DNA of 64,000 nucleotides from Methanofollis ethanolicus (GCF_001571385.1 NZ_BCNW01000001.1:496001-560000), one strand, 5' to 3'; counted from the stretch's first letter, positions 2,551 through 53,052 are shown. Notes: generated by a model from the letters alone, not told the origin. Program-made: numbers and translations.

Positions 2551-2600
2551 GTAACAATATATGTCATTTCTGTGCGAATCGTTTACGCGTCGCGGGACTT
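2551..2600 (-). promoter_or_regulatory. Promoter with shared upstream motif (copy A)
   Basis: On the minus strand this reads ACGATTCGCACAGAAATGAC followed by an ATATATTG TATA box at about 2557-2563. The AGAAA preceding the TATA box is a BRE match. The same block recurs at 3611, 4409, 5181, 6143, 52343 and, more weakly, 53015. The predicted transcription start near 2533 gives a leader of about 34 nt containing the ribosome binding site of the GTG start at 2499. Confidence 0.6.
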
Positions 2601-2735
2601 TCATCCCCCCGAAAGGACGCATCGATTAGAAAAAAGCAGATATCTCGTTTCAAATATTTTCTGCCATTTTTCCTGGGAAAACGCCCGATTCCGCACCTCG
2701 CACCTGCTCGATCGCGTTCGATTCAGGTATTATCA

Positions 2736-3305
2736 TCATGACTCATTCTTCCCCTCTGCAAGAACAGGGGCGACGAGGTCTCTGAGCGTCCCGCGATCGC
2801 GTGATGTCGTCCAGACACCGATGGCGCCTGATGAACCCGGCGTGAAGATCGTGTTCTGGTGGTATTCATCCAGATCTAAGAAGAAGAGTGCTTCGATGAT
2901 GGTGATGTTCCGCGGAGAACCATCGACGATATACCTCGTCTCGAATGTCGTGGGCTGAGAGAAGCGGAGGGCGACATAGGTGCTGTTTCGTTTCATCGCT
3001 GCCAGTTCTTCCTGAGAGAACCCAGTCTTGAGCTGCGCATTGATGCACCTGATCAACTCCTGGCATTCCGCATCGATGGCAGGATAGCGTTCGTCCTCGG
3101 GGTAGAGCAGGACGCTCCGACCCCCCGCTGGGTGGATGTCGAGATAGGCCGTGTCATTCAGCGGGGTCGGTTGCGCCGTCGGGAAGACGGTCGTGTTCTC
3201 CTGACCTTCCAGCGTTGCGGCGGGGAGAAAAACGGCGAGCAGGAGCACGACGACAAGCACGGCCGCAATACCGGCGGCAATGACATAGAGATAGGTTTTT
3301 TTCAT
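2736..3305 (-). CDS. Membrane-anchored extracytoplasmic protein of unknown function
   Basis: 189 residues. There is one N-terminal membrane helix (about residues 5-28), then a Thr/Pro-rich linker and a soluble domain of about 140 residues facing outward. I do not recognise the domain. The ATG at 3305 is preceded by GAGGTGA at good spacing. It follows the small membrane protein ending at 3315 by 9 nt, so the two are probably one transcript from the promoter at 3611-3652. Confidence 0.7.
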   Translation of the reverse strand: MKKTYLYVIAAGIAAVLVVVLLLAVFLPAATLEGQENTTVFPTAQPTPLNDTAYLDIHPAGGRSVLLYPEDERYPAIDAECQELIRCINAQLKTGFSQEELAAMKRNSTYVALRFSQPTTFETRYIVDGSPRNITIIEALFFLDLDEYHQNTIFTPGSSGAIGVWTTSRDRGTLRDLVAPVLAEGKNES

Positions 3306-3314
3306 CAGGTCACC

Positions 3315-3443
3315 TCAAAAAAGGAGAAAGGTTGGCTGATTACTTGACCTCCGGGATCTCTCCTTCGAACTCAGGATTACCACGCTCAGCAGCAATAGTG
3401 CCGCAGGTATGGAAATAGCCAACATTTTCCTTTGTTCATTCAT
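3315..3443 (-). CDS. Small single-pass membrane protein, 42 residues
   Basis: An ATG at 3443 preceded by GGAGGT with seven bases of spacing opens a 42-codon frame ending TGA at 3315-3317. The product has a short polar start (MNEQRK), one hydrophobic helix (about residues 8-25) and a basic tail containing KERSRRSS. It ends 9 nt before the start of the membrane-anchored protein at 3305, so translation is probably coupled. The strong ribosome binding site, the clear helix and the tight spacing support a real gene; no homology is claimed. Confidence 0.55.
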   Translation of the reverse strand: MNEQRKMLAISIPAALLLLSVVILSSKERSRRSSNQPTFLLF

Positions 3444-3610
3444 TCCATTTACCTCCGCTTTATCCCGGAGGCGAGATCCACATCTTCAAGTATCAGAAGG
3501 GAGTATAGTGTCATACCTCCGGGCAGTGCGGGGCCCCGTCAGCGTCTCGACAACATGGCGGGGCACCGTCGGGAGACCTTTTCGATCTTCACGGCGATAA
3601 ATATCTCTGG

Positions 3611-3652
3611 TGTATTATACATCGTTTCTGAGCGGATCGTTTAACTGTCACG
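3611..3652 (-). promoter_or_regulatory. Promoter with shared upstream motif (copy B)
   Basis: Minus-strand reading gives AACGATCCGCTCAGAAACGA then a GTATAATAC TATA box (about 3613-3619). The predicted start is near 3589, about 145 nt upstream of the small membrane gene at 3443. The bases just downstream (GAGATATTTATCGCCGTG) resemble those after copy E. The long leader could hold a 21-codon peptide (ATG near 3509) whose stop overlaps the next ribosome binding site, but that ATG has poor spacing to its own site. Confidence 0.55.
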
Positions 3653-3915
3653 TGGTTCTTACTTGCCCAAGCAGATCCGCGTGGCGCGAAAAATGTGCCT
3701 ATCTTTTTATGGGGCTCTCCGCCGCCTTTCGACGCGATAGCATTCTTTTTCACGCCCCGCGCCCGGTCGTGTCTCCGGTCGGATCGCCCTGAACTTTCCC
3801 TGTCGCCTGCGCCGACTGAGAGGGTCGTCGATGGCATGAATCTCCTGCTGTTGGATCTTCGGGGCTTGACGATCTCCTCTGAAGAAAAGGATGGGTGCGA
3901 CCGGGTCCCTGCGTT

Positions 3916-4374
3916 CTATCGGTGCGTATCGGTGGGTGTGGGAAGGGGCACCGTGGGTGTTTCGCCTCCCGGCGGCGTCGATGTCGGCTGCGTTACCGAA
4001 GGCATGATGACCGGCGTCCGTTTGTAGTTCTTTGTGATTGCGACCACGGTCTCCGTCTCCAGGTCCACGAATACCCAGAGTTGTGCGTCTTTTGTTTCTA
4101 TTGCGACGGTCGGCACTGTTTCCGACCGCTCCACGCCCCTGAAGGCGTGTGTTATGGTGGTATAGTCCACGTCCGTGATCTCGTAGTCTCCATGGAGGTA
4201 GTCCTGCACGGTGGCGTTCGCAAGGGCGGTCCTGACGGCCTTTGCCTTCTGGTCTTCCGTGAGGGCGGAGGGGGCCACAGGTCCGTCGCCATTCTCCACG
4301 CACCCGGCTACGAGTACAAAAAAGAGGATGAGTGCTCCTGCGGCGATCAGGCGTCCTGTCACGATGTGATCCAT
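3916..4374 (-). CDS. Lipoprotein with PepSY-like domain
   Basis: 152 residues. The N-terminal helix ends in a lipobox (LVAGC, Cys about residue 25). After it comes a domain of about 90 residues with the pattern TALANATVQDYL ... VAIETKDAQLWVFVDLETETVVAIT, reminiscent of PepSY-type domains that pair a short helix with beta strands. The tail is Thr/Pro rich. This domain is duplicated, with nearly identical DNA, as the C-terminus of the frameshifted gene at 1034-2499. The ATG at 4374 lies about 13 nt from the predicted transcription start of copy C. Function unknown; probably anchored on the outer face of the membrane. Confidence 0.75.
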   Translation of the reverse strand: MDHIVTGRLIAAGALILFFVLVAGCVENGDGPVAPSALTEDQKAKAVRTALANATVQDYLHGDYEITDVDYTTITHAFRGVERSETVPTVAIETKDAQLWVFVDLETETVVAITKNYKRTPVIMPSVTQPTSTPPGGETPTVPLPTPTDTHR

Positions 4375-4408
4375 GTATCCCGCTCCACCGCGCGCACTAT
4401 CTCTATCA

Positions 4409-4447
4409 TGCTATATCTCATTTCTGTGCAGATCGTCTATCTGTCGT
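4409..4447 (-). promoter_or_regulatory. Promoter with shared upstream motif (copy C)
   Basis: The TATA box is at about 4411-4416 with a BRE-like AGAAA upstream of it. Twenty-seven bases here (4419-4445) are identical to 52354-52380, 48 kb away, which is far more than a core promoter alone would conserve. It drives the lipoprotein starting at 4374. Confidence 0.65.
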
Positions 4448-4541
4448 GTGGGTTTCGTTCGCCCTCGACGGGGCGTCCCCGTCGCGAGGGGTGTGCCGAT
4501 TGCACGGATGGATCTCCTGCCGACCCGGACCTTTTCAGACG

Positions 4542-5129
4542 TTACACGTCTCCACCCGACGCTCCTTCCTCCCTGCTATACAGCGCTACGATGACATAGA
4601 GGGTGCCGATGATCGGGAGTCCGATGGTTCCGTACAACCAGAGAAGAGCGAGAAGGTGGAGAACTGATTGCCCGGAAAGCAGGCCCGGCCAGATCAGGAG
4701 AAGAATCAGGAGAGCAAAGAGGCTGACTATTGCTGAGAGAGATGACGCGGTTCCCGGTGCCCCCGTGTTCCCGGGAAGGGACAGGAAAAAGAGGGATGAG
4801 CACGGGGCCAACAAGAGAAATGAAACCGTCCAGACGGCCGGGAGGAGGCCAGAACTGCCGATAAGGGGTCTGATCCCCAGGGGCAGGGAGAGAAAACTTG
4901 TGGCGACGATCGCGCCGATAGCGAGAATGAGAGGTATGCCGAGGAGGTGTCGTTTCCCGGCGGAGTGCGTGAGAGTCAGAGTTGCTCCGGCGAGGGAGAC
5001 GCTTCCCAGAAGAACGGGAAGAACTGCCAGAAGTGCGGAGAGAGTCCGAGGGGCAATGATACCTGCGATATGGAGGATCCATGGGTAGAAAAAAAGGAGA
5101 GACGTGCAGATGAGGGCCTTTTTGATCAC
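4542..5129 (-). CDS. Polytopic membrane protein of unknown function
   Basis: 195 residues from GTG at 5129, which follows AAAGGAGG at six bases. An upstream in-frame ATG at 5183 sits inside the TATA box and is rejected. About six hydrophobic helices fill almost the whole protein; there are no charged catalytic motifs that I can see. Probably an integral membrane protein of the envelope gene group controlled by copy D. Confidence 0.7.
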   Translation of the reverse strand: MIKKALICTSLLFFYPWILHIAGIIAPRTLSALLAVLPVLLGSVSLAGATLTLTHSAGKRHLLGIPLILAIGAIVATSFLSLPLGIRPLIGSSGLLPAVWTVSFLLLAPCSSLFFLSLPGNTGAPGTASSLSAIVSLFALLILLLIWPGLLSGQSVLHLLALLWLYGTIGLPIIGTLYVIVALYSREEGASGGDV

Positions 5130-5180
5130 GGTTTTCCTCCTTTGCGTATAAATCTCAATGATGCGAAATATTTCCGGTTC

Positions 5181-5220
5181 CATATATATCGTTTCTGTGA
5201 CGATCGTCTCTGCGTTGCGT
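5181..5220 (-). promoter_or_regulatory. Promoter with shared upstream motif (copy D)
   Basis: Minus strand: GACGATCGTCACAGAAACGA followed by TATATATGG (TATA at about 5182-5188). The predicted start near 5158 leaves a leader of about 29 nt with a strong ribosome binding site before the GTG at 5129. The GACGATC to TATA spacing matches copies A-C. Confidence 0.65.
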
Positions 5221-5242
5221 CGATTTTACCCGTCTTTTATTG

Positions 5243-5671
5243 TCAGGCGGTGCCGGTGAAAAATACCAGAATCCACAGGGCGGAGAGTATGAGTGCGAAG
5301 GTCCTGATGAGTGTCTGTTTGCTGGACGCGCAATAGCCGGTCAACCCGAGAACGAGCAGGAGGGCCAGGTGATATCCGGCGAATTTCGGGTCTTCGAAGA
5401 TGGTCTGGATGCCGGTGGCGAGCGCGGCCGCCAGGACGAGGGGAACGTACGAGAGTGTGGCGGCGAGGGCCGATCGCGCCCTGTCGCCGGTCAGGTATCC
5501 GTAGGCGAGGGCGCCGAGGGGAAACAGGAGTATCACGAAAATTTCAACCACGCCGTGGGCGGACCCGCCTTCACCCCTGAAAAAATACAGGGCGGCGGCG
5601 AGGAGAGCAAAAGCGGCGACGTAAAATAGGAGAATGAGATTTTTTCTGTCTGGATCATCTCTGCGTGGCAT
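5243..5671 (-). CDS. Small polytopic membrane protein
   Basis: 142 residues with a short basic start (MPRRDDPDRK) and four predicted helices (about residues 11-30, 38-60, 70-90, 103-138). No family recognised. The ATG at 5671 lies 3 nt after the stop of the gene ending at 5675, so the two form an operon reading from promoter copy E. No separate promoter is visible. Confidence 0.7.
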   Translation of the reverse strand: MPRRDDPDRKNLILLFYVAAFALLAAALYFFRGEGGSAHGVVEIFVILLFPLGALAYGYLTGDRARSALAATLSYVPLVLAAALATGIQTIFEDPKFAGYHLALLLVLGLTGYCASSKQTLIRTFALILSALWILVFFTGTA

Positions 5672-5674
5672 GGG

Positions 5675-6106
5675 TCAATCCTGATGGACGGTCCCGACCC
5701 TGTAGTGCCGCCCTGCATACGCGAAATATTTTCTCGTGCCTGTCGTCGGGTCGATGAGATAGAGGTCGATGGTCGCCTGCGTTATCTTTTCGGGATATTC
5801 CACCTCGCCCGCGAGGCGGATGTCTCCTTCGTTATATCCCTGCCCTGTCCGGTTCGCTTCGCCCTCCACAAGCACTTTTTCGAGGGCCGGATAGTCCCTG
5901 ATGGTCTGCTCGTCGAGATGAATGATGATGCCTTCCCCGGCCTTCTGTTCGGTAATCTCGAAGACCTGGAGGCGGTCAGGCGGAACGGTCAGGGACAGGA
6001 GATAGGGAAAGACGGCGATGCAGATCAGGGGGAGGAGTACCAGCACGATAAGGAGAATGATGAGTTTCGTATGCCGGCGCACCGTTTGAGAGAGTGACGC
6101 TGCCAT
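5675..6106 (-). CDS. Membrane-anchored extracytoplasmic protein
   Basis: From ATG 6106 the protein has 143 residues; a GTG at 6121 would add five. The predicted transcription start is about 6120, so the ATG fits better, with a leader of about 14 nt. One N-terminal helix (about residues 15-37) is followed by a soluble domain of about 100 residues with the look of a small beta-sandwich. Unknown function; first gene of a two-gene operon with the membrane protein at 5243-5671. Confidence 0.65.
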   Translation of the reverse strand: MAASLSQTVRRHTKLIILLIVLVLLPLICIAVFPYLLSLTVPPDRLQVFEITEQKAGEGIIIHLDEQTIRDYPALEKVLVEGEANRTGQGYNEGDIRLAGEVEYPEKITQATIDLYLIDPTTGTRKYFAYAGRHYRVGTVHQD

Positions 6107-6142
6107 CCTCGCGGTCTCCACGGCGTGAAATATCTCCGGCGT

Positions 6143-6182
6143 ACTATATCCCGGTTATGGTACGATCATCTTCGTGTCGCGG
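6143..6182 (-). promoter_or_regulatory. Promoter with shared upstream motif (copy E, diverged)
   Basis: Minus strand: GCGACACGAAGATGATCGTA, then a CTATAT-type TATA box at about 6144-6149. It keeps the GCGACAC and GATCGT parts of the motif but has a changed BRE. Downstream bases resemble copy B. Confidence 0.45.
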
Positions 6183-6187
6183 AATTT

Positions 6188-7384
6188 TCATCCTCCCTCT
6201 TCCCCCGCACCGAGCACCCTGTCGAGCCAGTCGAAGATCCGCTGGTTCCGCCGCATCGTCCCACCTGTGCCGCAGTGCTCCTCGATACCCTCCGCGGCCG
6301 GGAAGGGCATCCACTCCTTCTCGCAGGCGAGGGCGTTGTACAGGAGGCGTGCCCTGCCCGGGAAAGACCGCTCGTTCCCGGCCTCGATGACGAGTGTGGG
6401 GCAGGCGATCTCGCCGGCCATGCCCTCCAGGGTGTAGGCCTGCGACATGAGGAGCCACTCGTGCGGCGAGGCTGCGCCGTAGACGTACATGCCGTGCTGG
6501 AAGGCCCAGCGGATCGCGGGGTCGGTCTTCATCACCTCCCGCACGGCGGCGTCGAAGGCGCCGGGGTCGGTGTGGAGGGTCTCGATCACATCGCCGGCCA
6601 TCACGGTCAATTTCGTGTAGTCGGCGTCGAAGACCCCGCCGTTGGCGACGAGCGCGGCGATCCGGTGATCGCAGGCTGCCGCCCGCGGCGCGAGGTACCC
6701 TCCCATCGAGGCGCCGATCAGGGCGACACGCCCCTGGTCGACCTCCGGCCGTGCGAGGAGCCAGTCGACGGCCGGGGTCATCACCGTCTCCCAGTCGGGC
6801 CTGAAGGCAAGGCCCTGCTCGCGTATCACCGCGCCCTGTCCCGGCCCCTCGAAGGCGAGGACATTGTATCCTCTTTTCAGGGCCGAGATCCCGTAGTCCA
6901 GGTAGAGTTCCTCCGCGGTGCCGTCGAAGCCGGTGGTGAGGACCGCGGTCGGTCGCCCCTCCCCGCCTGCCGGGAAGAAGTAGCCGGGCATGGCTGTCCC
7001 ATCGTACGGGATGGCGACGACCTCGTGCTCGATGTCGAGGAGGGCGAGGGCCTCTCTGAAGCAGGTGCGCGATTTCCCCCAGGTCTCGACGATCCGCGGG
7101 TCGGCCGGGTCGCCGTGGAGGAAGAACTCCGACGCCCGGTAATAGGAGAATGCCCGCATATATGCCTCTCCGGCACTGACGCGGCTGGCCCCGGCCTCGC
7201 GGGCATAGCCCTCCACCTGTTCGGCCGTCCGCCGCCATTCTGCATGCCAGCTCTCGAAGTCGGCTTCCCGGATCCGTGCCGCGGTCATCAGGCATTCCCC
7301 GATGTCCGCGCCTCCGACGGCGCACGTCCCGAGGATACGGAGGTACTGGAAGGAGAACTGCTCGTCGCTGAAGTGGACTTTCAT
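6188..7384 (-). CDS. Alpha/beta hydrolase, FrsA/pseudooxynicotine-hydrolase type
   Basis: 398 residues. An N-terminal helical region of about 120 residues precedes the alpha/beta hydrolase core, the layout of the FrsA/DUF1100 and 2,6-dihydroxypseudooxynicotine hydrolase families. The nucleophile elbow is GASMGGY with Ser about residue 226. The strand YNVLAFEGPGQG and the late His in EEHCGT complete the usual triad, with an acid probably in VIEAGNE. It should cleave an ester or C-C bond of a soluble cytoplasmic substrate that the sequence does not reveal. The ATG at 7384 is close to the predicted transcription start, so the mRNA may be nearly leaderless. Upstream are paired direct repeats (7451-7490). 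Confidence 0.8.
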   Translation of the reverse strand: MKVHFSDEQFSFQYLRILGTCAVGGADIGECLMTAARIREADFESWHAEWRRTAEQVEGYAREAGASRVSAGEAYMRAFSYYRASEFFLHGDPADPRIVETWGKSRTCFREALALLDIEHEVVAIPYDGTAMPGYFFPAGGEGRPTAVLTTGFDGTAEELYLDYGISALKRGYNVLAFEGPGQGAVIREQGLAFRPDWETVMTPAVDWLLARPEVDQGRVALIGASMGGYLAPRAAACDHRIAALVANGGVFDADYTKLTVMAGDVIETLHTDPGAFDAAVREVMKTDPAIRWAFQHGMYVYGAASPHEWLLMSQAYTLEGMAGEIACPTLVIEAGNERSFPGRARLLYNALACEKEWMPFPAAEGIEEHCGTGGTMRRNQRIFDWLDRVLGAGEEGG

Positions 7385-7409
7385 CGTGACCGCTGAACAG
7401 TCGGCGCCA

Positions 7410-7490
7410 TTTCATTTAAGGTTTCGGAGAAAATGGTGGGGTCGAGAGTCCTCATCCCGTGATGATCTGCCTCTCACCCCGTGATGATCT
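7410..7490 (-). promoter_or_regulatory. Hydrolase promoter with two operator-like direct repeats
   Basis: On the minus strand, CCGAAACC (BRE) and TTAAATG (TATA) lie at about 7412-7427. Upstream are two 18-base repeats differing at one position (AGATCATCACGGGGTGAG and its twin) at 7473-7490 and 7451-7468. They start exactly 22 bp apart, two helical turns, which suggests paired binding of one regulator on one face of the DNA. Confidence 0.5.
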
Positions 7491-7612
7491 TTTCACAGTC
7501 CTCTTCAGAGAGCGCGACGGGCCGATGTGATGAGGACGGTTTTGATGGTATCTTCTGCCGAGGAGTTTGTCGGAGGGGATATTCCTGTGCGTCCCTGTTG
7601 AATTCAGGCAGA

Positions 7613-8698
7613 TTATGTTGTCTTCTCCCGTTCCCGGAAAAAATCCTCTATCGGCACTGCGTGGTCTTTATAATACTCGAAGAGCCGCTCGCCCCATGCC
7701 AGCGCTTCGGGCGCCCTGCTGACCAGGTCGTGCACGGTATCGTAGGTGCCGTCCTCACGGCACAGGCCGAGGGAGAGCGCCCTGTCGGTGACCGTGAGCC
7801 CGACCGTGATGGGGACCGTCGAGACGAAGAGCCTGAAATTGGGGACGTCGGCGACGTCTCTTTCCCTGCCGACGAACTCCTCCTGCCAGAGCGGTCCGGC
7901 AAGGTCGGGCGTGATGACGAGTTCCACCTCCGCCCCCGCGGTCACCCTTTTCCAGATGGCCTCGGCGACGAAGGGCAGGGACCATGTCGAGACGCCGTGG
8001 ATGGATCCGGCCTCCTTGAGGATCTCCAGGAAATTCTCTAACCCCTCCTCCAAGTTTGCCGGGAGGTACATGAAATGTACGCCGCCCATCAGATCCCCGA
8101 TACGCTGTACGGCGAACTCCGGGATGTCGTCGAGGGAGTGGCTCTCGAAAAAACTGTTGAACTGTTCGATGGTCGCGATCGTCCTGCTGCAGCGGTCGAG
8201 GAAGGTGAGATATGCCTCGCCTCTCGGCGTCAGGCGGAGGGCGCCGTCTGCATCGGAGAGATATCCGCGGGAGAGCATCCACTCTCTCATCTCGCCCTCC
8301 GCACATTCCGGGTGCCGGAAAGCGTCCTGATAGGAGGGCACAGACAGATGGCCGATATCGTCGAGCACGCCCTCGACCACGAGGGGCAACGGCGGGAGAG
8401 AAAATCCCGGTCTGCTGTAGAGGGCCCTGTACAGCCCGGACGCGCAGGAAAGGAGCCTGCCTGCAAGGACGTGCCCGCTCTGTGTGAGCCGATACCCCCC
8501 TGCTTCGCGGCTGATCATCCCGCGGTGCTGGAGGCCGCGGAGGGCCTCCTCGGTCTCGTCCCACCGGCACCCCGTGACGGCGGCAAGGTGGTGGGCGCGT
8601 TGTCCGCCGCCCGAGAGTGCCACCAGGAGGCGGACCACCGCCGGTGCGGTGTAAAAACGGATCCGGTCAGGACCGATGCTACTATCGTGTGCGTCCAT
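7613..8698 (-). CDS. HTH transcriptional regulator with FilR1-type C-terminal domain
   Basis: 361 residues from ATG 8698, preceded by GAGAGGAC; the longer frame to 8773 is not supported by a binding site. A winged helix lies at about residues 10-75. The rest matches the architecture of archaeal FilR1/DUF1724 regulators: a second wHTH-like segment followed by a ligand-sensing domain around EVELVITPDL and LGLCREDGTYD. The ATG is 14 nt inside the stop side of the iminopeptidase ending at 8712, so the two genes are one operon and the regulator may control the neighbouring hydrolases. The paired repeats at 7451-7490 lie immediately downstream and are a possible target. Confidence 0.75.
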   Translation of the reverse strand: MDAHDSSIGPDRIRFYTAPAVVRLLVALSGGGQRAHHLAAVTGCRWDETEEALRGLQHRGMISREAGGYRLTQSGHVLAGRLLSCASGLYRALYSRPGFSLPPLPLVVEGVLDDIGHLSVPSYQDAFRHPECAEGEMREWMLSRGYLSDADGALRLTPRGEAYLTFLDRCSRTIATIEQFNSFFESHSLDDIPEFAVQRIGDLMGGVHFMYLPANLEEGLENFLEILKEAGSIHGVSTWSLPFVAEAIWKRVTAGAEVELVITPDLAGPLWQEEFVGRERDVADVPNFRLFVSTVPITVGLTVTDRALSLGLCREDGTYDTVHDLVSRAPEALAWGERLFEYYKDHAVPIEDFFREREKTT

Positions 8699-8711
8699 TC
8701 TGTCCTCTCGT

Positions 8712-9587
8712 TCAGCCTTCGACTCTGGCGAGGAACTCCCGCACCGTCGCGAGGTAGGCGACCGTCGCCTCAAGGTGGTGCTCGTGGGACGCCCCGTCGA
8801 AGACGGCGACCTCCGACCCCGGCATCATGCTGTGGTAGTATGCCGTCGTCTCCGGGGTCGCCTCGTCGAACTCCCCGCAGGTGAAGAGGGTGGGGACCCG
8901 GATCTCATGGAGGCGTTCGGCGCGCTCGAAGTCGCCGAGGCTTCCGGTGATGGTGAACTCGCTCGGCCCCCACATCTGGAGGTAGATGTCGGCGTTCAGG
9001 CGCTCGAATGTTTTCATCAGGCAGTCGGGCCAGGGGTCTGTGCGGCAGACATGAAGGCGGTAGTAGGCCGTCATCGCCTCCTGGTAGGCGGGACCGTCGT
9101 AGCTGCCCGCCTCTTCGGCGCGGAGGACCGCCTCCCTGTGGTCGTCGGGGAGGGCCAGGAGATATCTCCGCCCGTCCGCGGCCCAGTGCGATGCCGAGAG
9201 GCAGGGTGCGGAGAGGACGAGGCTTTCCACCCCGTCGGGCCGGTGCGTGAGCATGTATTCGACGGCGAGCATCGTCCCCCAGGACTGGCCGAGGATGTGG
9301 ACGCGGTCGAGGCCGAGGGCCTTCCGCACCGCGGCGAGTTCGTCCACGGCACGTTCCAGCGTCCGGAGGGAGGGGTCGGCCGGGCGGTCGGAGTCGCCGC
9401 AGCCGAGCTGGTCGTAGAAGACAATCGGCCTCCCCCCGAGGGCGGCGAGAGGTTCGAGGTAGTCGGACGTGCAACCAGGGCCGCCGTGGAGGACGAGGAG
9501 AGGGGTGCCGCTCTCCTCCGCGCCGGCGACATGATACACTATCTTTCCGCTGGGAACGTCTGCGAAACCTTCATGGGGGAGATCCAT
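8712..9587 (-). CDS. pip: Proline iminopeptidase-like alpha/beta hydrolase
   Basis: 291 residues from ATG 9587. Oxyanion-hole motif HGGPG (about residues 34-38) and nucleophile elbow GQSWG (Ser about 102) are the signature of S33 proline iminopeptidases; the acid (CGEFDEATPE) and His (ASHEHH) are in the expected late positions. It releases N-terminal proline from peptides in the cytoplasm. The start at 9728 is rejected because its first 47 residues come from AT-rich non-coding DNA. Forms an operon with the FilR1 regulator. Confidence 0.85.
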   Translation of the reverse strand: MDLPHEGFADVPSGKIVYHVAGAEESGTPLLVLHGGPGCTSDYLEPLAALGGRPIVFYDQLGCGDSDRPADPSLRTLERAVDELAAVRKALGLDRVHILGQSWGTMLAVEYMLTHRPDGVESLVLSAPCLSASHWAADGRRYLLALPDDHREAVLRAEEAGSYDGPAYQEAMTAYYRLHVCRTDPWPDCLMKTFERLNADIYLQMWGPSEFTITGSLGDFERAERLHEIRVPTLFTCGEFDEATPETTAYYHSMMPGSEVAVFDGASHEHHLEATVAYLATVREFLARVEG

Positions 9588-9845
9588 ACTTTTTCTCTTG
9601 ACGTTTTCCGGGATGAAGGTGGCGATCTGGTCGTGGGCGAGAATGTTTGTCGTCAAGTTTCTGGAATGATTTGTATTCGACAATAAATGGAATGAACGAA
9701 TATTTTGGAATGTCTTCAATCTCGACAATTTGATTTTTCTATCAAATACACTTTCACAACACGCATGGCTTCAATTAAACATAGAGTAAGTACACAAGGT
9801 CAATAACAGATGCGAACAAACTAGGTGTCATATAGGGTAAGATAG

Positions 9846-10577
9846 ATGTCTACTATAATTTATGAAAGCAAAGGAAGAGCACGTGAGTATTCTGAATTGG
9901 CAGCTAATCTATATCGCGGTTGCGATCATGGCTGTATTTATTGCTACGCACCTCTTGCAACAAGGAAAAGCAGGGAAGTATTTCTTAAACCCGCTGTAAG
10001 AGAAGGGGTTATCAATAAGTTATTTAATGACGCAGAAGAATTAGAAAAAAAGAAGGAAGAGCGATATATTTTACTTTGTTTTACGACAGATCCATATTTA
10101 CATCTTGATGAAAAGTATCAACTTACCCGAAAGGCAATTCAGATCCTACTCAGTCACAATCTAAAAGTGACCATTCTGACAAAGGGAGGACGTCGTTCGG
10201 AAAGGGATTTTGACCTTTTAGAATCTCATCCTCATATGACTAAGTATGGAGCAACACTTGTTTTTACTAACGAAGAGCAAAGAAAAGTTATTGAACCAAA
10301 TGCGGCCCCCACCAGCGAAAGAATTCAAGCTTTAAAAAATGCTCATGATCGAGGAATCTATACATACATCTCCTTAGAACCTGTCTGGGATCCTGAACAG
10401 AGTTTGCAATTGATTGATCTAACTCACGAATTTGTTGATCACTACAAAGTGGGAAAATTAAATTATAATTCCCGACAGCAGGAAATTGACTGGAAGGAAT
10501 TTCGTGAAAATGCCATTAAAAAACTAGAGCATTACAAAAAATCGTATTATATCAAAAATGATTTATTGCAATATTAA
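9846..10577 (+). CDS. Radical SAM protein of the SplB-like group
   Basis: 243 residues. The radical SAM 4Fe-4S motif is CDHGCIYC (C-x3-C-x2-C, about residues 26-33), followed by a partial TIM-barrel pattern (ILLCFTTDPYLHLDE, KVTILTKGG, YISLEPVWD). Length and motifs match the COG1533 (spore photoproduct lyase-like) family rather than a phage Gp37 protein. The gene is markedly AT-rich compared with its surroundings and converges on, and overlaps by 4 nt, a TcmP gene. Radical SAM proteins of this kind are known next to three-Cys-motif partners; the substrate is not known to me. Signs of transfer: composition and codon use. Confidence 0.8.
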   Translation: MSTIIYESKGRAREYSELAANLYRGCDHGCIYCYAPLATRKSREVFLKPAVREGVINKLFNDAEELEKKKEERYILLCFTTDPYLHLDEKYQLTRKAIQILLSHNLKVTILTKGGRRSERDFDLLESHPHMTKYGATLVFTNEEQRKVIEPNAAPTSERIQALKNAHDRGIYTYISLEPVWDPEQSLQLIDLTHEFVDHYKVGKLNYNSRQQEIDWKEFRENAIKKLEHYKKSYYIKNDLLQY

Positions 10578-12425: not shown

Positions 12426-12430
12426 AGACC

Positions 12431-44496: not shown

Positions 44497-44519
44497 AATC
44501 GTTGCGCTGTCGGTCCACC

Positions 44520-45676: not shown

Positions 45677-45851
45677 TTCGTCTCTGTCTGGTTAAAGTGG
45701 TATTATTTGTATACTGAATATGGATGCTGTCGATCATTTTCAGGGTGCTGTCCCCCGCCTCTCCAGAATCTCTGTACCTCGAATGTGGTGCGACAATACC
45801 TGTTCCTGTTGAGCGTTTCCTCCTGGAAATCCAGAATCTTTGAGGTTGACC

Positions 45852-46475
45852 ATGCCGATCGAGAGTACGGCGATATCCCCGGACCGTGCCGTGGAGGACG
45901 AAGCAGATGCGATCGATCAGACTGCCCGCCGAATGGCTGCTGCTGTTACCACAGGAGAACTGGGACTGATTCTTGCCGACGAAATCAGCAGGTACTCCCT
46001 CCCTGATCTCCAGACCATCGGGGGCAGGATGTACGCGGAGATGATCCGGCTGCCCCGCCCCTACCGCGACCAGCTTCACCCGTATATGACCGAGCAGTTA
46101 TTCGGCGCCCACCATAGGCTTCTCGTGATGTATCGTTCAGGTAGATTCCGGTCCATGACTGAACCTATCACAGATAGAGAAACGTTTCTCCGATTCTGTG
46201 AGATGATCCCGGACGGGAGTTTCCGGGGGGATGAAGATACGGAAAGGACGCCATTCCGTTACTCGCCGCGGCATCGGCTCTTCTATTACCTGGTGTCGGC
46301 CTTCACGATCTTTGTGCTCGACCGTCCGGGCCACCCGGTGGGGACACCATTTCCGGGAGGGTTCAAGGTCGAGGAACACGACGGTGCATTCTACTGCCTT
46401 ATCCGTGACCATGAAAAAGAAGTTCCGTTTTCGATCTGTAACTTCTGCCCGGCTCATCAGAGAGCAGGAGTGTGA
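45852..46475 (+). CDS. DUF2115/UPF0305 family protein
   Basis: 207 residues from ATG 45852 with GAGGTTGACC before it. Contains the family pattern ISRYSLPDLQTIGGRMYAEM, then RPGHPVGTPFPGGFKVE and a C-terminal CNFCPAHQ pair of cysteines, probably metal binding. DUF2115 is confined to methanogenic archaea as far as I know; function unknown. A second shorter paralogue follows. Confidence 0.75.
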   Translation: MPIESTAISPDRAVEDEADAIDQTARRMAAAVTTGELGLILADEISRYSLPDLQTIGGRMYAEMIRLPRPYRDQLHPYMTEQLFGAHHRLLVMYRSGRFRSMTEPITDRETFLRFCEMIPDGSFRGDEDTERTPFRYSPRHRLFYYLVSAFTIFVLDRPGHPVGTPFPGGFKVEEHDGAFYCLIRDHEKEVPFSICNFCPAHQRAGV

Positions 46476-46654
46476 TTCTGTGGAGCACCGGAGTGTCACC
46501 GCCAGGACAATAAAAGATAACGGCACTGTCCCGGGACCGGGGTTGCAGTTGAAGCATGGTGAGGAAACCGCATGAATCCGTCATCTGGTGTCGAAGATCA
46601 TCCTTCTGCACGTTTTCTTGTGCAAAGGGGAGAAGTCGTCTCTTATGCCCGGGG

Positions 46655-47128
46655 GTGTGTACTCTGAACGCCTCCGATCTATTGTCCCGCCTCCGCCGCG
46701 ATCTGGAGGGTTTATCTGATTACACATCCCGAATTGAGCAGGAACGGCAGGCCCGGACAGAAGACCCTCCCGGCATGCTCACCCGTCTCGGGGACTACAA
46801 TTACGCCACGTACACCGAAATCTGCCATCGTGACGGCGTTTCCCCGGATTTTAAGATCGATTCCGCGATCGTGGAATCGTTCGAGCGCACGCTGAACCAG
46901 TATCTTGATACATACGCTCCCGGAAAAACAGATCTGAAACGCTACGTGTTGAGCATTTCTCTGTATCTGACTTTTATCGTAAAGAGACCTCTTCATCCAC
47001 CGGGAACGCCATTTTTTGGGGACCTCCATGTCATACAGAAGGGGGAGTCGTACTATTGCAGTGGAAAGAAACGGTTCATTCGCGATCCTTCTTCGCTCTG
47101 CCGTTACTGTGTCTGCAAATCGCTATGA
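46655..47128 (+). CDS. DUF2115/UPF0305-like paralogue
   Basis: 157 residues from GTG 46655; the start is uncertain because no good binding site is visible. Shares with its neighbour the segments RPLHPPGTPFFGDLHVIQKG and CRYCVCKS at the end, but the N-terminal part is diverged. A tandem duplication of one gene followed by divergence is the simplest explanation. Confidence 0.65.
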   Translation: MCTLNASDLLSRLRRDLEGLSDYTSRIEQERQARTEDPPGMLTRLGDYNYATYTEICHRDGVSPDFKIDSAIVESFERTLNQYLDTYAPGKTDLKRYVLSISLYLTFIVKRPLHPPGTPFFGDLHVIQKGESYYCSGKKRFIRDPSSLCRYCVCKSL

Positions 47129-47409
47129 TCCCGGGACGGTGGAAAAACAATTTTTTATTGGTTCTTTTACTGGCAAATCCGATATTTATGCAGGGTTATC
47201 CCCAATCAAAATTTCATGGCCGATCTTTTAATCGTTGAAATCTTGAAGCCGTGTTTGAAAAAGATTGTATCTTAAAAATAGGTCTTTTATCACGCACAAT
47301 TTTCTGCGGTACTCTTCAATGCCAACATTTCACGAATCCCATATCAAAATCCTTATCCATCAGAATATCGCACGTTTTTGTGTCTTTTTAGATAACGAGG
47401 CCTTTTAAA

Positions 47410-48264
47410 ATGGATATGAAAATAAATCCTCTGGTTCTGGTATTTTTTTCTGTCATCGCGGTTGTTGTAACGGGAGGGTGCACCGATTCATCTCCCGACA
47501 TACGTGACACGCACCTGGAAATACTCGATGTTGGTGCTGAAAATCAAAGCATTTCTTCCCTTGACACGTACATGACCGTCAAGAACACCGGACCTACCAC
47601 GGCACATAACATTGTCGTTGCTGTGATAATTCTGCCAGAATCTGATGTCTCTTCTATCCTGGAGAGTACTGAGATTTTAAAGATTGTGGCGCGGAATGAC
47701 TCTCAGAATGAGGATTTAATGCTGGACCGGGATTTTGTCGATGCGTTAGGGCCTGGAGAAACCATTAAGATTCATCTTTCTGTGAATCCCGATGACCTAT
47801 CTGATGGGTGGGACGTTTTGAGGGTTGCTTTTGCGGATAACGCCGAAGTGGTGTACTCCGAACCAGAGCCATCTTCGTCTCCAGGAGTTCTGCAGGGTAG
47901 TACGCCGTCTACAACGACACCCACCACACCGTCTACAACGACACCCACCGCTACTTCCGCACCTTTGCAGGAACCTGCGTACGCGATAGGGGATGTGATC
48001 TCTTATGAGCAGGATTCAAACGTTGCAGAGGTAATTCTGGACTATGACGCTCACGATGATGTGTATAAAACGGATGTGATCTTCAAATGGGACGAATATG
48101 ATACCGGTGAATATGGGTGGTATCCGTACAGTGCTCCGGCGGGTACGTGGGGGTATCGCTTAGAAAGCAACGATTCGAGTTGGACTGATCGTACGTGTAT
48201 GGAAAAATCCTATCCCTATGTTCTCGGACATGCCGATCAGATCGCTCTCAGAGAGGACTATTGA
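47410..48264 (+). CDS. Lipoprotein with CARDB-like N-terminal domain
   Basis: 284 residues. Lipobox VVTGGC (Cys about 24). Residues 35-150 have the pattern of a beta-sandwich adhesion or CARDB-like domain (TYMTVKNTGPTTAHNIVVAV, LGPGETIKIHLSV). A Thr/Pro linker encoded by a 24-base tandem repeat (47905-47952) joins it to a C-terminal domain (about 195-284) with YGWYPYSAPAGTWGYRLES. Surface-exposed; function unknown. Confidence 0.75.
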   Translation: MDMKINPLVLVFFSVIAVVVTGGCTDSSPDIRDTHLEILDVGAENQSISSLDTYMTVKNTGPTTAHNIVVAVIILPESDVSSILESTEILKIVARNDSQNEDLMLDRDFVDALGPGETIKIHLSVNPDDLSDGWDVLRVAFADNAEVVYSEPEPSSSPGVLQGSTPSTTTPTTPSTTTPTATSAPLQEPAYAIGDVISYEQDSNVAEVILDYDAHDDVYKTDVIFKWDEYDTGEYGWYPYSAPAGTWGYRLESNDSSWTDRTCMEKSYPYVLGHADQIALREDY

Positions 48265-48458
48265 TTGACACCATACTATTTCTGAAAATAGATCGAAAAT
48301 ATCCGTTGATACACTCTCCCCTCCTTTTTCGTGCGCACGCTCTGCCTGCTTTCTTTTGACCCTGTCCTGGAGTTAATCTGAGATGATCTCAACCGGCAGA
48401 GATAATATCTGCAAACATTTTTTGCCGGCCCCTCCGTATGGCTGTACGAGGGAGAAGA

Positions 48459-48890
48459 ATGGACTTTTCCGACTGCGTGAAATTTGCAAACGAAAATCCG
48501 GTGACGTATATTGCGACCATGGACGGCGACCAGCCCAGGGTCCGGGCGTTTGCCATGTGGTTTGCCGATGAGAGCGGGTTTTACTATCACACCGGCACGC
48601 CGAAAAAGATCTGGCAGCAACTTATGACGAACCCGAAGATCGAACTCTGCTTCTATGCTCCCGCCGAGGGTGCGGGAACGATGATGCGGGTCGCAGGAGA
48701 GGCCGAGTTCCTCGAAGATGCGGCCCTGAAAGGGCGGCTCGTCAGAGAGCGCCCGTGGCTTCTCCAGATCGGCATCTCGGGTGCGGATGATCCCAGGCTT
48801 GCCGTCTTCCGCGTCGCCCACGGCGATGCATATCTCTGGACGATGGAGTACAACATGCGGGAGGCCGAGGCGCCCCGCGTCAGATTCTAA
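48459..48890 (+). CDS. Pyridoxamine 5'-phosphate oxidase-like flavin-binding protein
   Basis: 143 residues from ATG 48459 (GAGGGAG eight bases before). Split beta-barrel pattern VTYIATMDGDQPRVRAFAM, YYHTGTPKKIWQQL and IELCFY typical of PNPOx-like proteins that bind FMN or F420. Likely a small redox enzyme; the substrate is unknown. Monocistronic. Confidence 0.85.
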   Translation: MDFSDCVKFANENPVTYIATMDGDQPRVRAFAMWFADESGFYYHTGTPKKIWQQLMTNPKIELCFYAPAEGAGTMMRVAGEAEFLEDAALKGRLVRERPWLLQIGISGADDPRLAVFRVAHGDAYLWTMEYNMREAEAPRVRF

Positions 48891-49069
48891 CGCTCTGTAG
48901 GTATGGGGATCTCTCCCCATCCCCCCGGACCGGGCGTATCGGGATGTGAGGAGCCCGCCCCAGATCAGGTGCGGGCCGGATACCATTCATCCCCCGGTGC
49001 GACCCCTGCCAACCGTTCGACGGCATCCTCTGCGTCCTGACCCGGCACCCGCAGACGCAGGCATTCCCC

Positions 49070-50155
49070 TCACTCCAGCGTCCGGCGGTAGGTCGTGATC
49101 CCGAGGGCGATGGCGATCCCGGAGAAGACGATGAGCGCCAGCAGGTCCATGCCGATGAGGTTCACCCGCCCCCGCAGGATCAGGCTCCGCAGGGCGTGGA
49201 TCGCATAGTACTCAGGATTGATCACGGCAATCCAGCGGAGCCAGGACGGCATGCCGAGCACCGGGTAGAACGCCCCGCTGGTCATGAACAGGATGAGGTT
49301 CAGGAAGGCCACGACCGAGGCGTACTCCTGCTGGGATGAGAACCGCGAACTGAACGAGACCACCAGGCTCGTGATCCCGATGCTGATGATGAAGAGGACG
49401 ACCAGGACCATGAGAAAGGTCTCCATGCCGTCGACCACGACGCCAGCCACGACGATGTCGACCAGGAAGATGATGAAGCCGGCCATGAACGCCTTGACCG
49501 TCCCGCTCGCGATGATCCCGAGAATGATGCTCGAACGCTTCACCGGCGTGACCAGATAGCCCTCGATGATCCCGTTCTCCCTGTCGCGGATCAGGCCGAT
49601 CCCCCCGCCCATCATCGTGGTCATGAAGATGGCCATGACGATGACCCCGACCCCGAAGAACTGGATATACTTGATGTCGCCGTAGATCTTCGAGACCAGC
49701 AACGGGTTGTTCGCCCCTGACTGCGCTATAACGCTGCTCACCCCCGACTGGATCAGGTCGGGGATCATATACTCGGAACTGTCGAGATAGAGGCGGACTG
49801 GGCGGTCGGTCGCGACCCCTGAGGGGAAGATCGCCACGGCCATAACCTTCCCATCGTCAAAAGCCGCTTTTGCCGTCTCTTCCCCGGAAAAGACCGTGAC
49901 GTCGAAGATCGGCGGGTTGTCCCCGCTGTGGAAGTGGCCGAGGCCGTCGACGGCCGAGAGATAGAGGGGCGTCTCGTTCTCGAAGGGCACCTCCTGCGCC
50001 ACCCCGATGGGGATGTGGGTGATCGTCCCGCCCATGGCGTTCCCGAAGATGATCAGGTACATGATGGGCATGAAGAGGGTCATCACGATGATGGCCGGGT
50101 TCCCCAGGAACTTCTTGAAGTCCCGCCTGAAGATCGCGACGGCTCCCCGCATCAT
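49070..50155 (-). CDS. ABC-2 type transporter permease
   Basis: 361 residues with one N-terminal helix, an extracytoplasmic loop of about 130 residues and five C-terminal helices, the YhhJ/DrrB layout. MGGGIGLIRDRENGIIEGYLVTPVKRS (in parts) is the ABC-2 signature. Exports a drug-like or lipid substrate, powered by the ATPase encoded upstream, whose stop it overlaps (ATGA). A fragment of this gene occurs at 44520-44630. Confidence 0.88.
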   Translation of the reverse strand: MMRGAVAIFRRDFKKFLGNPAIIVMTLFMPIMYLIIFGNAMGGTITHIPIGVAQEVPFENETPLYLSAVDGLGHFHSGDNPPIFDVTVFSGEETAKAAFDDGKVMAVAIFPSGVATDRPVRLYLDSSEYMIPDLIQSGVSSVIAQSGANNPLLVSKIYGDIKYIQFFGVGVIVMAIFMTTMMGGGIGLIRDRENGIIEGYLVTPVKRSSIILGIIASGTVKAFMAGFIIFLVDIVVAGVVVDGMETFLMVLVVLFIISIGITSLVVSFSSRFSSQQEYASVVAFLNLILFMTSGAFYPVLGMPSWLRWIAVINPEYYAIHALRSLILRGRVNLIGMDLLALIVFSGIAIALGITTYRRTLE

Positions 50156-51150
50156 GGACGACCCCTCCCCCCGTCCAGCCGCGTTCCGGTGAGGTAGATG
50201 AAGACGTCCTCGATCGAGGGGGAGCGGATGGCGATCGAGGTCATGGGGAGGTCGTGCTTCTCGAACACCTCGACGATGGAGGGCAGGACGCGGCTCCCGT
50301 TCTCGGCCGAGATGATGAGCGTGTGCTCCCTCGCCTCCACCGAGGTGAGGCGACTGTCCCCCCGCAGATCCGCGAGTGTCTCCTCGTCCACCGTATCGAC
50401 CCCGATCTCGATGACGTCCCCTGAGGGAAGGGAATGTTTGAGGTTCTCAGTGGTGTCGAGGCTGAGGAGACGCCCCCTGTCCACGAAGGCGATGCGGTCG
50501 CAGAGTTTCTCCGCCTCGTCCATGTAGTGCGTGGTCAGGATGATCGTCGTCTCCTCCCTGTTCAGGGCCGTCACCTGCCGCCAGACCTCCCGCCTGGACT
50601 CAGGGTCGAGGCCGATCGTCGGTTCGTCCAGGAAGAGGATGAGGGGTCTGTGGATGAAAGCCCGCACGATCTCCAGTTTTCGCCTCATCCCACCGGAGAA
50701 CGTCTGCACCGGCACGTGGGCGCGGTCGGCGAGGTCGGCCATGTCGAGGAGTTCCCTGATCCTGTCGTCGAGAATGCAGGGATCGACCTCCTGCAGATTG
50801 CCGTGGAAGTCCAGGTTGTCGTAGGCGGTGAGTTCAAGGTCGAGCGTGCTGGTCTGGGGGCAGACCCCGATCATCCGGCGGATCTCCTCTTGCTGGCGGG
50901 CGACGTCGTAGGGGCCGATGAACACCTTCCCCGAGCTGGGCCGGAGGAGGGTGGTGAGGATGCGGATGATCGTGCTTTTTCCGGCCCCGTTCGGGCCGAG
51001 AAGGCCGAAGATCTCTCCCTTATGCACCTCGAAGGAGACGTCGTCCACCGCCTTCACCGTGCGGCTCCCGTCCCTGAAGACCTTGGAGAGGTGCTCGATC
51101 CTGATGATGCTCTCCGGACCGGCTGTGCGGTCGCTCTTCGTCCCGGCCAT
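50152..51150 (-). CDS. ABC transporter ATP-binding protein (DrrA type)
   Basis: 332 residues from ATG 51150. Walker A GPNGAGKST, Q-loop CPQTSTLD, signature FSGGMRRKLE, Walker B LILFLDEPTIGLD, H-loop TTHYMDEAEKLCD. A C-terminal domain of about 90 residues (VDTVDEETLADLRGDSRL) is typical of DrrA proteins. Energises the permease with which it overlaps. Confidence 0.9.
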   Translation of the reverse strand: MAGTKSDRTAGPESIIRIEHLSKVFRDGSRTVKAVDDVSFEVHKGEIFGLLGPNGAGKSTIIRILTTLLRPSSGKVFIGPYDVARQQEEIRRMIGVCPQTSTLDLELTAYDNLDFHGNLQEVDPCILDDRIRELLDMADLADRAHVPVQTFSGGMRRKLEIVRAFIHRPLILFLDEPTIGLDPESRREVWRQVTALNREETTIILTTHYMDEAEKLCDRIAFVDRGRLLSLDTTENLKHSLPSGDVIEIGVDTVDEETLADLRGDSRLTSVEAREHTLIISAENGSRVLPSIVEVFEKHDLPMTSIAIRSPSIEDVFIYLTGTRLDGGRGRP

Positions 51151-51300
51151 GCGGATCACCGTCTCGGCGTTTGTCTGACGACGGTCCGTATGCTCGCCGA
51201 GGAATATAAGATCGATCTGGTCGGGCGCTGCACCGACCCGCCTGCAGGCGTCGAAAGATCCGGGAAGACGTGTCGCGTTTCAAAAAAGAGGAGGGCTATC

Positions 51301-52122
51301 TCACCCCTCGATGACGCCGGTAAACACCGTCACCGCGGGGCCCTGCATCGTCGTCGTCTCCCCGCACTCGATGACGAGGGGGCCGCCGTTCGTCTCGACA
51401 TGCACTTCCGAACCGACGCGGCCGAGACGGTGGGCGACGACCGCCGACGCCGTGGCGCCTGTGCCGCAGGACTCGGTCTCGCCCTCGACGCCCCGCTCGA
51501 AGGTGCGGACCCTGATCCCGTCCTCGCCCGTCACCTGCACGAAGTTCACGTTCGCCCCCTTCGGGAAGGAGGGGTGGTGGCGGATGCGGGGTGCGGCGGC
51601 CAGGACGTCGACGGCGGCGACGTCGTCGACGAAGATCACGGCGTGGGGGACGCCGGTGTTCGCCGCGTAGACGGTGAAGCCGTCGATCTCCTCCTCATAC
51701 TCCCCCTCGCCGGTCGCCGGGATCGCGGAGCGCTCGAAGGCCGGGTCGACCATCCGGATCGTCGCCCAGAACTCGCCGTCGTCGTCATAGTCCATCTCGA
51801 CCGGCATGACGCCCGCGAGGGTCTCGACCGTGCAGGTACCGGCGGCGAGGCCCGCGTCGAGGGCGTACTTCGCCAGACACCTGATGCCGTTCCCGCACAT
51901 CTCGGCCTCGCTCTCGTCCGGCTGGAAGAGCCGCATCTTCACGTCCGCCCTTTCCGATGGAGAGATGAAGAGCACGCCGTCCGCGCCGATGCCGAAGCGG
52001 CGGTCGCAGTACAGGGCGGCAAAACCCCCCTTCATCTCGTCGGGGATGACCGTGCCCTCCATCTCGTCGATCAGGACGAAGTCGTTGCCATTGCCGTGCA
52101 GTTTGGTGAACCGGATCTCCAT
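51301..52122 (-). CDS. dapF: Diaminopimelate epimerase
   Basis: 273 residues. The two active-site cysteines are in EAEMCGNGIRC and ESCGTGATAS, and FTKLHGNGNDFVLID is the conserved start. It converts LL- to meso-diaminopimelate for lysine synthesis. The 140 nt between it and the ABC genes contains no clear gene. The upstream interval holds IS debris and a copy of the shared promoter. Confidence 0.93.
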   Translation of the reverse strand: MEIRFTKLHGNGNDFVLIDEMEGTVIPDEMKGGFAALYCDRRFGIGADGVLFISPSERADVKMRLFQPDESEAEMCGNGIRCLAKYALDAGLAAGTCTVETLAGVMPVEMDYDDDGEFWATIRMVDPAFERSAIPATGEGEYEEEIDGFTVYAANTGVPHAVIFVDDVAAVDVLAAAPRIRHHPSFPKGANVNFVQVTGEDGIRVRTFERGVEGETESCGTGATASAVVAHRLGRVGSEVHVETNGGPLVIECGETTTMQGPAVTVFTGVIEG

Positions 52123-52224
52123 ACCTCTATGTTTTCCCTGTCCACGCTATATCACTTCGCTGGTTAGTCTGCTCGAAGGGAACAAAAGAGCGGAGACGAT
52201 GGTGCGGGTGCTCGGGACACCCGC

Positions 52225-52290
52225 GTGATGGGTATGCAGGATTGGGGAGGACGGCAATTGGGTGTTCCATCCCCCCACCTGGCAATGGGT
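52225..52290. repeat. Degenerate IS605-type left-end remnant
   Basis: GGGGAGGACGGCAATTGGGT and CATCCCCCCACC parallel the left end at 44150-44175 (GGGAGGACGGCATTCATCCC and CCCACT...), with about nine extra bases. No transposase gene is nearby, so it is a scar of an old insertion or excision. Confidence 0.45.
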
Positions 52291-52342
52291 GAAGTCCTGC
52301 AGAGCCTCTTTCAGAGACCCGTGATGGGAAATGGTGCCTTCT

Positions 52343-52382
52343 TTGAATAATATCATTTCTGTGCAGATCGTCTATCTGTCAT
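52343..52382 (-). promoter_or_regulatory. Promoter with shared upstream motif (copy F, apparently orphaned)
   Basis: Bases 52354-52380 equal 4419-4445. The TATA box (AATGATATTATTC on the minus strand) differs slightly. Downstream there is no convincing gene until dapF at 52122, with the IS scar at 52225-52290 between them, so its original target may have been lost, or it may serve dapF. Confidence 0.5.
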
Positions 52383-52463
52383 TGCCGGTCAGGTATTCCT
52401 GTCGGCGGCGATCTCTCTCTGGCCGCAAGGAACTTTTTGTGTGCGTGGTCCTGTCCCGGAACG

Positions 52464-52982
52464 TCATGCCTCCTTCCCTTTCATCCAGGGCGGTGACATC
52501 ATCTCTTCAGTCGCCGTCCTGTTTGCGAAGGGAGTGCGGGCGAAGATCACCGGCGTGCTCTTCACCCCCACCCCTCTCCCGTGGCGTTCGATGACCTGGT
52601 AGATCGTGTCCGTGGTCGCGTGGTTGGTCGGGGTTTTTCCGTCCAGAAAAATCTGGATGCAGCCCGGGTAGGTGATGCCGTAAGAGTAGACCGGGCCTTT
52701 GGGGTAGAGGTACGGCTCAAGTTCCGGCCCGGCCGCCTGGAGGACGGCGAGAAGGTCCTGCCCCTCACCAACCCTCCCGTAGGCGGCGCAGATATCGCAC
52801 GCGAGGAACCTCTCCAGGTCGGCGTCGCCGATGTCGGGGATCACCTCTCTGATCGCCGCCCCGGCCTCTCCCCCCTCCCGGCCGGAGTTCAGGTCGGCAT
52901 AGATCGATGCAGCGCCGATGGATACCAGTATCACGGCGAGCGCCGCGACAAGAAATGCCGGTGCCTTTGATGACGGGTCCAT
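52464..52982 (-). CDS. Membrane-anchored extracytoplasmic protein
   Basis: 172 residues. One N-terminal helix (about 9-28), then a soluble domain with a Cys pair LACDICAAYG and a third Cys in YPGCIQIF. GRVGEGQDLLAVLQAAG and IYQVIERHGRGVG are regular alpha/beta segments. Function unknown. AGGAG lies four bases before the ATG. Preceded by promoter copy G, so it probably belongs with the envelope genes at 1-6 kb. Confidence 0.7.
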   Translation of the reverse strand: MDPSSKAPAFLVAALAVILVSIGAASIYADLNSGREGGEAGAAIREVIPDIGDADLERFLACDICAAYGRVGEGQDLLAVLQAAGPELEPYLYPKGPVYSYGITYPGCIQIFLDGKTPTNHATTDTIYQVIERHGRGVGVKSTPVIFARTPFANRTATEEMMSPPWMKGKEA

Positions 52983-53014
52983 ATTTCTCCTGTGTATCTC
53001 TAGAATGCCCGCGG

Positions 53015-53052
53015 CGCTATATACCGTTTCCGCGGGAGGCGGACGATCCGGA
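53015..53052 (-). promoter_or_regulatory. Promoter, weak match to shared motif (copy G)
   Basis: Minus strand: GGATCGTCC upstream, then GCGGAAACGG (BRE) and TATATAGC at about 53017-53023. GATCGTCC and the GAAACGG-TATATA core are kept, but the spacing is wider by about ten bases. The predicted start near 52993 leaves a leader of about 11 nt. Confidence 0.4.

Follow-up and report, generated by a model that had tools for sequence, protein, structure and literature searches.

A 25-bp element next to BRE/TATA marks a probable regulon of exported and membrane proteins in Methanofollis and Methanoculleus

In the DNA of Methanofollis ethanolicus analysed here (a stretch of 64,000 nucleotides, positions 496001-560000 of contig 1 in a genome of 2.71 Mb, hereafter the window), one block of sequence recurs ahead of minus-strand genes for lipoproteins and membrane proteins, which raises the question of whether it is simply a core promoter or whether it also carries an operator and thereby defines a regulon of surface proteins, as the original prediction had proposed. 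That prediction placed the block at 2551, 3611, 4409, 5181 and 6143, which form a cluster, and also at 52343. These copies were confirmed, and each of them lies on the minus strand; the copies at 4419-4445 and 52354-52380, which had been called identical, are so over about 28 bases. The list of seven sites was nevertheless right for six only: the weak copy claimed at 53015 is no site (the best score in 53001-53090 is -23 bits, and it is missing from the matches of both search models used below), and a copy at 55148 had been missed. Since homologues of the gene behind 53015 (52464-52982) carry a full site in two other genomes (G010 and G011; L045, L047), position 53015 looks like a lost site. 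The window contains seven minus-strand promoter blocks, at 2560, 3618, 4414, 5185, 6147, 52349 and 55148 (Table 1).

Table 1. Operator/promoter blocks, the small-RNA candidate and winged-helix/2-TM genes (window positions unless marked as genome positions)
Feature	Position	Strand	Context
Operator + BRE/TATA + AGAGATAT block	2527..2593	-	Followed by a 5' hairpin; drives exported protein 1282-2499
Operator/promoter block	3585..3651	-	Followed by type-B structured leader (~3477-3597), remnant ORF 3315-3443 and membrane-anchored protein 2736-3305
Operator/promoter block	4381..4447	-	Lipoprotein gene 3916-4374
Operator/promoter block with perfect palindrome GACGATCGTC	5152..5218	-	Multipass membrane protein 4542-5129, GTG start after GGAGG
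Operator/promoter block, degenerate, kept in G009	6114..6180	-	Membrane-anchored protein 5675-6106 and membrane protein 5243-5671
Operator/promoter block of the small-RNA candidate (formerly an orphan copy)	52316..52382	-	
Additional operator/promoter block	55082..55148	-	Membrane protein 54422-54967, whose G005 homologue has a site too
Claimed weak copy, rejected as a site; BRE/TATA alone left	52995..53069	-	Gene 52464-52982
Small-RNA candidate, about 140 nt	52185..52325	-	Ends inferred; 3' end near GCTCTTTT
Winged-helix/2-TM gene	genome 1345131-1345661		Operator copy just upstream, 14 bits
Winged-helix/2-TM gene	genome 1127697		Operator copy just upstream, 19 bits
Winged-helix/2-TM gene	genome 1324481		Ends 0.3 kb before a site

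Aligned without gaps, the copies give the consensus CGACnnnTA-RACGATC-nnnn-CAGAA-nnnn-TATATA, followed by about 7 variable bases and then by AGAGATATT, an element common to the copies, about 7 nt after the TATA box, that the original prediction did not list. The spacing between operator block and TATA box is fixed. Information content peaks at columns 3-26, drops in the spacer and rises a second time at the TATA box, and over all sites the pairwise identity is 0.72 in the operator vs 0.56 in the upstream flank. A search for a dyad or direct repeat within the operator gave a best correlation of 0.36, which is weak, and no clear dyad. With up to 3 mismatches, the pattern RACGATC..CACAGAAA..TATA has five copies, as compared with 0.01 expected in shuffles. 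A 40-column matrix trained solely on sites from other genomes, with no site from M. ethanolicus itself, put the seven sites at ranks 1-7 of the window, six of them with 26-51 bits and 55148 with 20 bits; next came 5669 with 17 bits, and apart from this the next-best position reached 8 bits. Although 17 bits exceeds background, 5669 was set aside as a site: the operator-like stretch (5629-5669, minus strand) lies inside codons 2-14 of ORF 5243-5671 and is without a TATA box.

The cluster has further features of its own. Behind the leader of block 3618 lies a 42-codon minus-strand ORF (MNEQRKMLAISIPAALLLLSVVILSSKERSRRSS.., 3315-3443) that resembles what is left of an exported protein, fuller relatives of which occupy the corresponding place in G008 (L054) and in a site-rich island of G039 (L217). 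A 225-nt direct repeat (1077-1301 and 3947-4171, 90% identical) joins the 3' ends of two exported-protein genes that otherwise differ, and a Pfam search of the cluster proteins returned no match for six small exported or membrane proteins.

Is the block, then, a stretched core promoter (BRE, TATA and initiator), possibly read by a special TFB, with no operator in it? Such a reading would account for CAGAA at the BRE position, for TATA after a fixed spacing and for the position of AGAGATATT between TATA and the probable start. Conservation, however, extends 25 bases upstream of TATA, past the contact of TFB; other promoters in the same stretches are without the block, and the genes behind it are of one class. 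Moreover, a dedicated second TFB as reader of the block is excluded, because nearly every complete genome, site-rich and site-free alike, has exactly one TFB gene. We consider a core promoter without operator very improbable, and take the block to be an operator that adjoins one.

A search model built solely from the six window sites found further sites in the same genome at E-values of 8e-11 to 5e-8; the twelve strong matches with E below 5e-8 include six new ones, and in the tail of the list nearly every match stands ahead of an exported gene, except for matches in TnpB-like coding sequence. Three matches were discarded: 1688830 and 611347, within coding sequence resembling a transposon TnpB gene, and genome place 646131 (AACGGACAACACAGAAA, kept in G009 and G011), a chance match in coding sequence whose ORF reads MNGQHRKDIRPGILVDIVLKA. 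A further search model gave 23 matches at 22 distinct places in 2.7 Mb; the promoter of an ABC ATPase appears twice (G000:C3:3342 and C1:225919), and its copy on C3, a contig of 3.6 kb, is probably an assembly duplicate. When 497,000 positions, operator-rich stretches included, were scored with the 40-column matrix, the distribution was bimodal, with 40 positions above 10 bits and 4 between 3 and 6. The original prediction had named equally good matches to most promoters of the genome as evidence against itself, and what was found instead is these 22 places.

Among relatives, the further model counted 1-21 sites per genome in the Methanoculleus-like group (f4/g4) and in most of the Methanofollis genomes, of which one (G004) had no site in this search. 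G018 has 10 sites, and the remainder of the order has almost none. Named Methanoculleus contigs also bear the block (L064-L066). In open-access papers, we found no description of such a motif in Methanofollis or Methanoculleus. One Methanoculleus-like genome has an island (G039:C1:72000-142000, L215-L218) in which many genes for exported proteins and two winged-helix/2-TM genes lie among operator copies numbering well above ten, and site-rich stretches like it are also present in G024, G029 and G034.

The genes behind the sites have a common character. Exported or membrane proteins follow 20 of the 22 places in M. ethanolicus; one of the other two precedes an ABC ATPase (a member in both genera) and one precedes no protein. 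The prediction of surface-protein targets held in other Methanofollis, Methanoculleus and related genomes as well, where the gene behind the site encodes an N-terminal hydrophobic segment (a crude test) in 44 of 51 further cases vs 20 of 54 for operator-less control promoters (p = 3e-7); these controls came from the same kind of stretch, in part from site-rich stretches, and are conservative because several missed sites remain among them. In the related genomes, the motif is kept before both homologous and non-homologous members of the exported class. The sites, their fixed spacing, their rarity, the class of their targets and their conservation across genera can all be read directly from the sequences. 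Because the places are few genome-wide, the target class is enriched and most target proteins are unrelated, the reading as an operator with a surface-protein regulon is supported, and we hold with good confidence that in Methanofollis one operator governs exported and membrane proteins across the genome as a regulon, which Methanoculleus and one further related genus have in common with it. The cell would very likely switch its surface proteins together from about twenty promoters.

The copies might also be a by-product of gene duplication, with promoter, leader and gene copied together and still undiverged. There are indeed duplicate pairs (window 3618 and genome 177843, with proteins 87% identical; genome 1119655 and 77712, 66%), and the leaders that we call type A have an identity of 0.74 over 80 nt. 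The majority of the target proteins are unrelated to one another, however, and since similar pairs number only five among the 23 proteins at or near sites, no single gene family carries the motif; a single recent duplication that included the genes, which had been named as grounds for abandoning the prediction, explains few cases. In addition, the operator is better kept than its flanks over all sites, and the motif is found again in other genera, ahead of exported genes that are unrelated, as well as ahead of a non-coding gene. That distant genomes have unrelated targets already largely refutes duplication as the explanation, which we regard as extremely improbable, and spread by duplication would in any case be compatible with function.

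Beyond the operator, many target mRNAs are predicted to start with a common 5'-terminal hairpin leader. The type-A leader (GTGGATGCC-GAAA-GGTGTCCC) follows the sites at genome positions 1116831, 1119655, 77712, 1643338 and 1638304, and the proteins behind it are similar in sequence in one pair only; the type-B leader (GTGGAGATC-GAAA-GATCTCCC, plus a second hairpin) follows those at 177843 and 180090 and window site 3618. Both open with a hairpin at the probable transcription start, and hairpin pairs are changed on both sides in 4 of 32 and 6 of 34 cases, a result that speaks modestly for a folded structure. It seems that promoter and leader travelled together when they came to stand before different exported proteins.

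The copy at 52349 had been regarded as an orphan. It is a real copy, but it is followed by a conserved, probably non-coding product of about 140 nt, which G009 and G010 have in nearly identical form and which can still be recognised in G011. The region folds better than shuffles (z = -3.5), has two similar loops (CACCCATTGCC and CACCCAATTGCC) and closes with a hairpin and GCTCTTTT; a 1-nt indel in G010 and the lack of conserved reading frames make it most likely non-coding. It thus shows what is expected of an archaeal small RNA: an operator promoter of its own, a T-run terminator, conserved structure and no conserved ORF. The next annotated gene is dapF (51301-52122), 93% identical to the dapF of a Methanofollis MAG, which agrees with the genus; its start lies ~200 nt beyond the predicted transcription start, so that the copy could instead be a long-leader promoter of dapF with no small RNA. 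A conserved TATA-like element 25-35 nt ahead of the dapF start (at about 52150-52158), however, appears to serve dapF itself, a T-run follows the hairpin, and in G009 the RNA part is intact although the sequence after it is not dapF. We think the dapF reading unlikely; the 52349 copy probably drives a conserved non-coding RNA, and would add a small RNA to the regulon. A search for its targets by loop complement gave 5 matches (one being the RNA gene itself) vs 3 in the control, with no excess, and an Rfam search of the window gave 0 matches above the gathering score. A sequence resembling the loop, CCACCCAATTGCCGCCCC, occurs in conserved non-coding contexts without operator in G003 (L147) and G005 (L144).

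Which protein might read the element? A gene for a FilR1-type protein lies near the cluster (7613-8698), but was rejected: it is absent from site-rich genomes, and the site-poor genomes G004 and G007 have three each. A family of winged-helix/2-TM proteins is a better candidate. Its members (163-184 aa) have an ArsR-type winged helix (HTH_5, E = 5e-12) followed directly by two C-terminal TM helices (two hydrophobic 19-mers near 101 and 144), and therefore combine a DNA-binding domain with at least one TM region, as transmembrane transcription regulators do. M. ethanolicus genes of this family lie beside operator copies (Table 1), the G008 orthologue is directly behind a 37-bit site with a type-A leader, and the G010 orthologue comes after a site-led lipoprotein gene; this adjacency was sought after the first matches had been seen, and is a lead rather than a test. 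A clear homologue is present in 11 of 15 site-rich vs 6 of 24 site-poor genomes (p = 0.007). Some genomes with the protein have no sites, the Methanoculleus orthologues have no operator upstream, and the operator is without a clear dyad, unlike the textbook site of an ArsR dimer.

Alternatively, the regulon may be real and its regulator another, cytoplasmic protein, the winged-helix/2-TM genes being mere targets or neighbours. Three genomes with 7-12 sites (G005, G006 and G029) are without a convincing homologue and the G009 copy is broken, so that site-rich genomes do exist without an intact one; target status would also account for the operators ahead of these genes. Against this stand the exact adjacency in several genomes, the upstream operators, as autoregulation would give, and the exclusion of the FilR1-type neighbour as a general regulator. 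We give another cytoplasmic regulator about an even chance, and put the possibility that the winged-helix/2-TM family regulates these promoters slightly under even. As to neighbours, exported proteins resembling C39-type peptidases are encoded downstream of the operator at 1638304 (L171) and directly downstream of a winged-helix/2-TM gene (G000:C1:1344000-1345000, L181); in three Methanoculleus-like genomes (G024, G039 and G014), the orthologous regulator gene is followed by what reads as a serpin-like gene.

Taken together, a single DNA-binding regulator, or several members of a family that have the same specificity, would bind the 25-bp element CGACnnnTA-RACGATC-nnnn-CAGAA, which sits directly upstream of BRE/TATA and touches it, and would help or hinder the loading of TBP/TFB at about 20 promoters served by a single TBP/TFB machinery. 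A position upstream of BRE favours activation as the direction, which we infer; other archaeal activators placed upstream of BRE likewise act by activation. Binding and activation, the signal and expression of the small RNA are all predicted from sequence. If the regulators were the winged-helix/2-TM proteins, they would sense the condition of the envelope at the membrane. The fullest version of this picture is tentative and on balance doubtful: an archaeal envelope-response regulon under minimal membrane-embedded regulators (winged helix plus two TM helices, without a sensor domain), in which one operator would co-ordinate the exported proteins with an ABC exporter ATPase, with a small RNA dedicated to the system and with the genes of the regulators, and in which many target mRNAs would begin with a common 5' hairpin leader. 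Such a system would be a counterpart of sigma-E/Cpx.

Most of what is known about surface regulation in archaea concerns archaella and pili. In the present case, sequence alone gives many unannotated exported proteins a common regulatory identity, in two methanogen genera that are common in digesters and wetlands, and minimal membrane-anchored winged-helix proteins may control the archaeal surface. What emerges is an element of 25 bp with about 20 target promoters in this genome, together with one candidate for the regulator and one for a small RNA. As a kind, a transcription-factor regulon is already known; this one is possibly a new variant within it.

The bacterial sigma-E and Cpx envelope regulons place envelope protein genes and small RNAs under one control signal; here there is an archaeal promoter with an operator and no sigma factor, and the small RNA is a candidate. 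Among methanogen small RNAs, sRNA162 of Methanosarcina mazei has stem-loops and a single-stranded pairing region and lies beside ArsR-family genes (PMC3510493); the likeness is that of a methanogen small RNA with stem-loops near ArsR-family genes, and no sequence relation was seen. EarA of Methanococcus maripaludis, as PMC6396743 describes it, activates a surface structure through short promoter sites, which are repeated TACATA boxes at one operon; here one 25-bp element stands at many promoters. A census of transmembrane transcription regulators (TTRs) found Methanomicrobia to be enriched in them (PMC10269533), and the candidate family, like TTRs of the ToxR/CadC type, has a DNA-binding domain and a TM region in one protein, its membership being predicted from sequence; the papers searched gave no regulon or operator for TTRs of Methanofollis or Methanoculleus. 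In Sulfolobus acidocaldarius, cell-surface structures are controlled by the one-component regulators ArnR and ArnR1, which are membrane-bound, combine an N-terminal HTH with two C-terminal TM helices and bind upstream of BRE/TATA. ArnR also contains HAMP and sensor domains, and the sites to which it binds in controlling pili and archaella are inverted repeats (TCGAC-N5-GTCGA) located at -43 to -84 (PMC6396743). The Methanofollis candidate, whose binding is predicted, shares the HTH with two C-terminal TM helices and would share an element upstream of BRE/TATA and surface targets. It differs in having no HAMP or sensor domain, the winged helix being followed directly by two TM segments, and its presumed element, CGACnnnTARACGATCnnnnCAGAA, is unlike the ArnR box, abuts BRE and stands before about 20 mostly unannotated exported proteins. 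As predicted, the Methanofollis system would work most like ArnR/ArnR1 control and the TTRs, but it lies outside the ArnR family, having neither HAMP and sensor domains nor an ArnR box.
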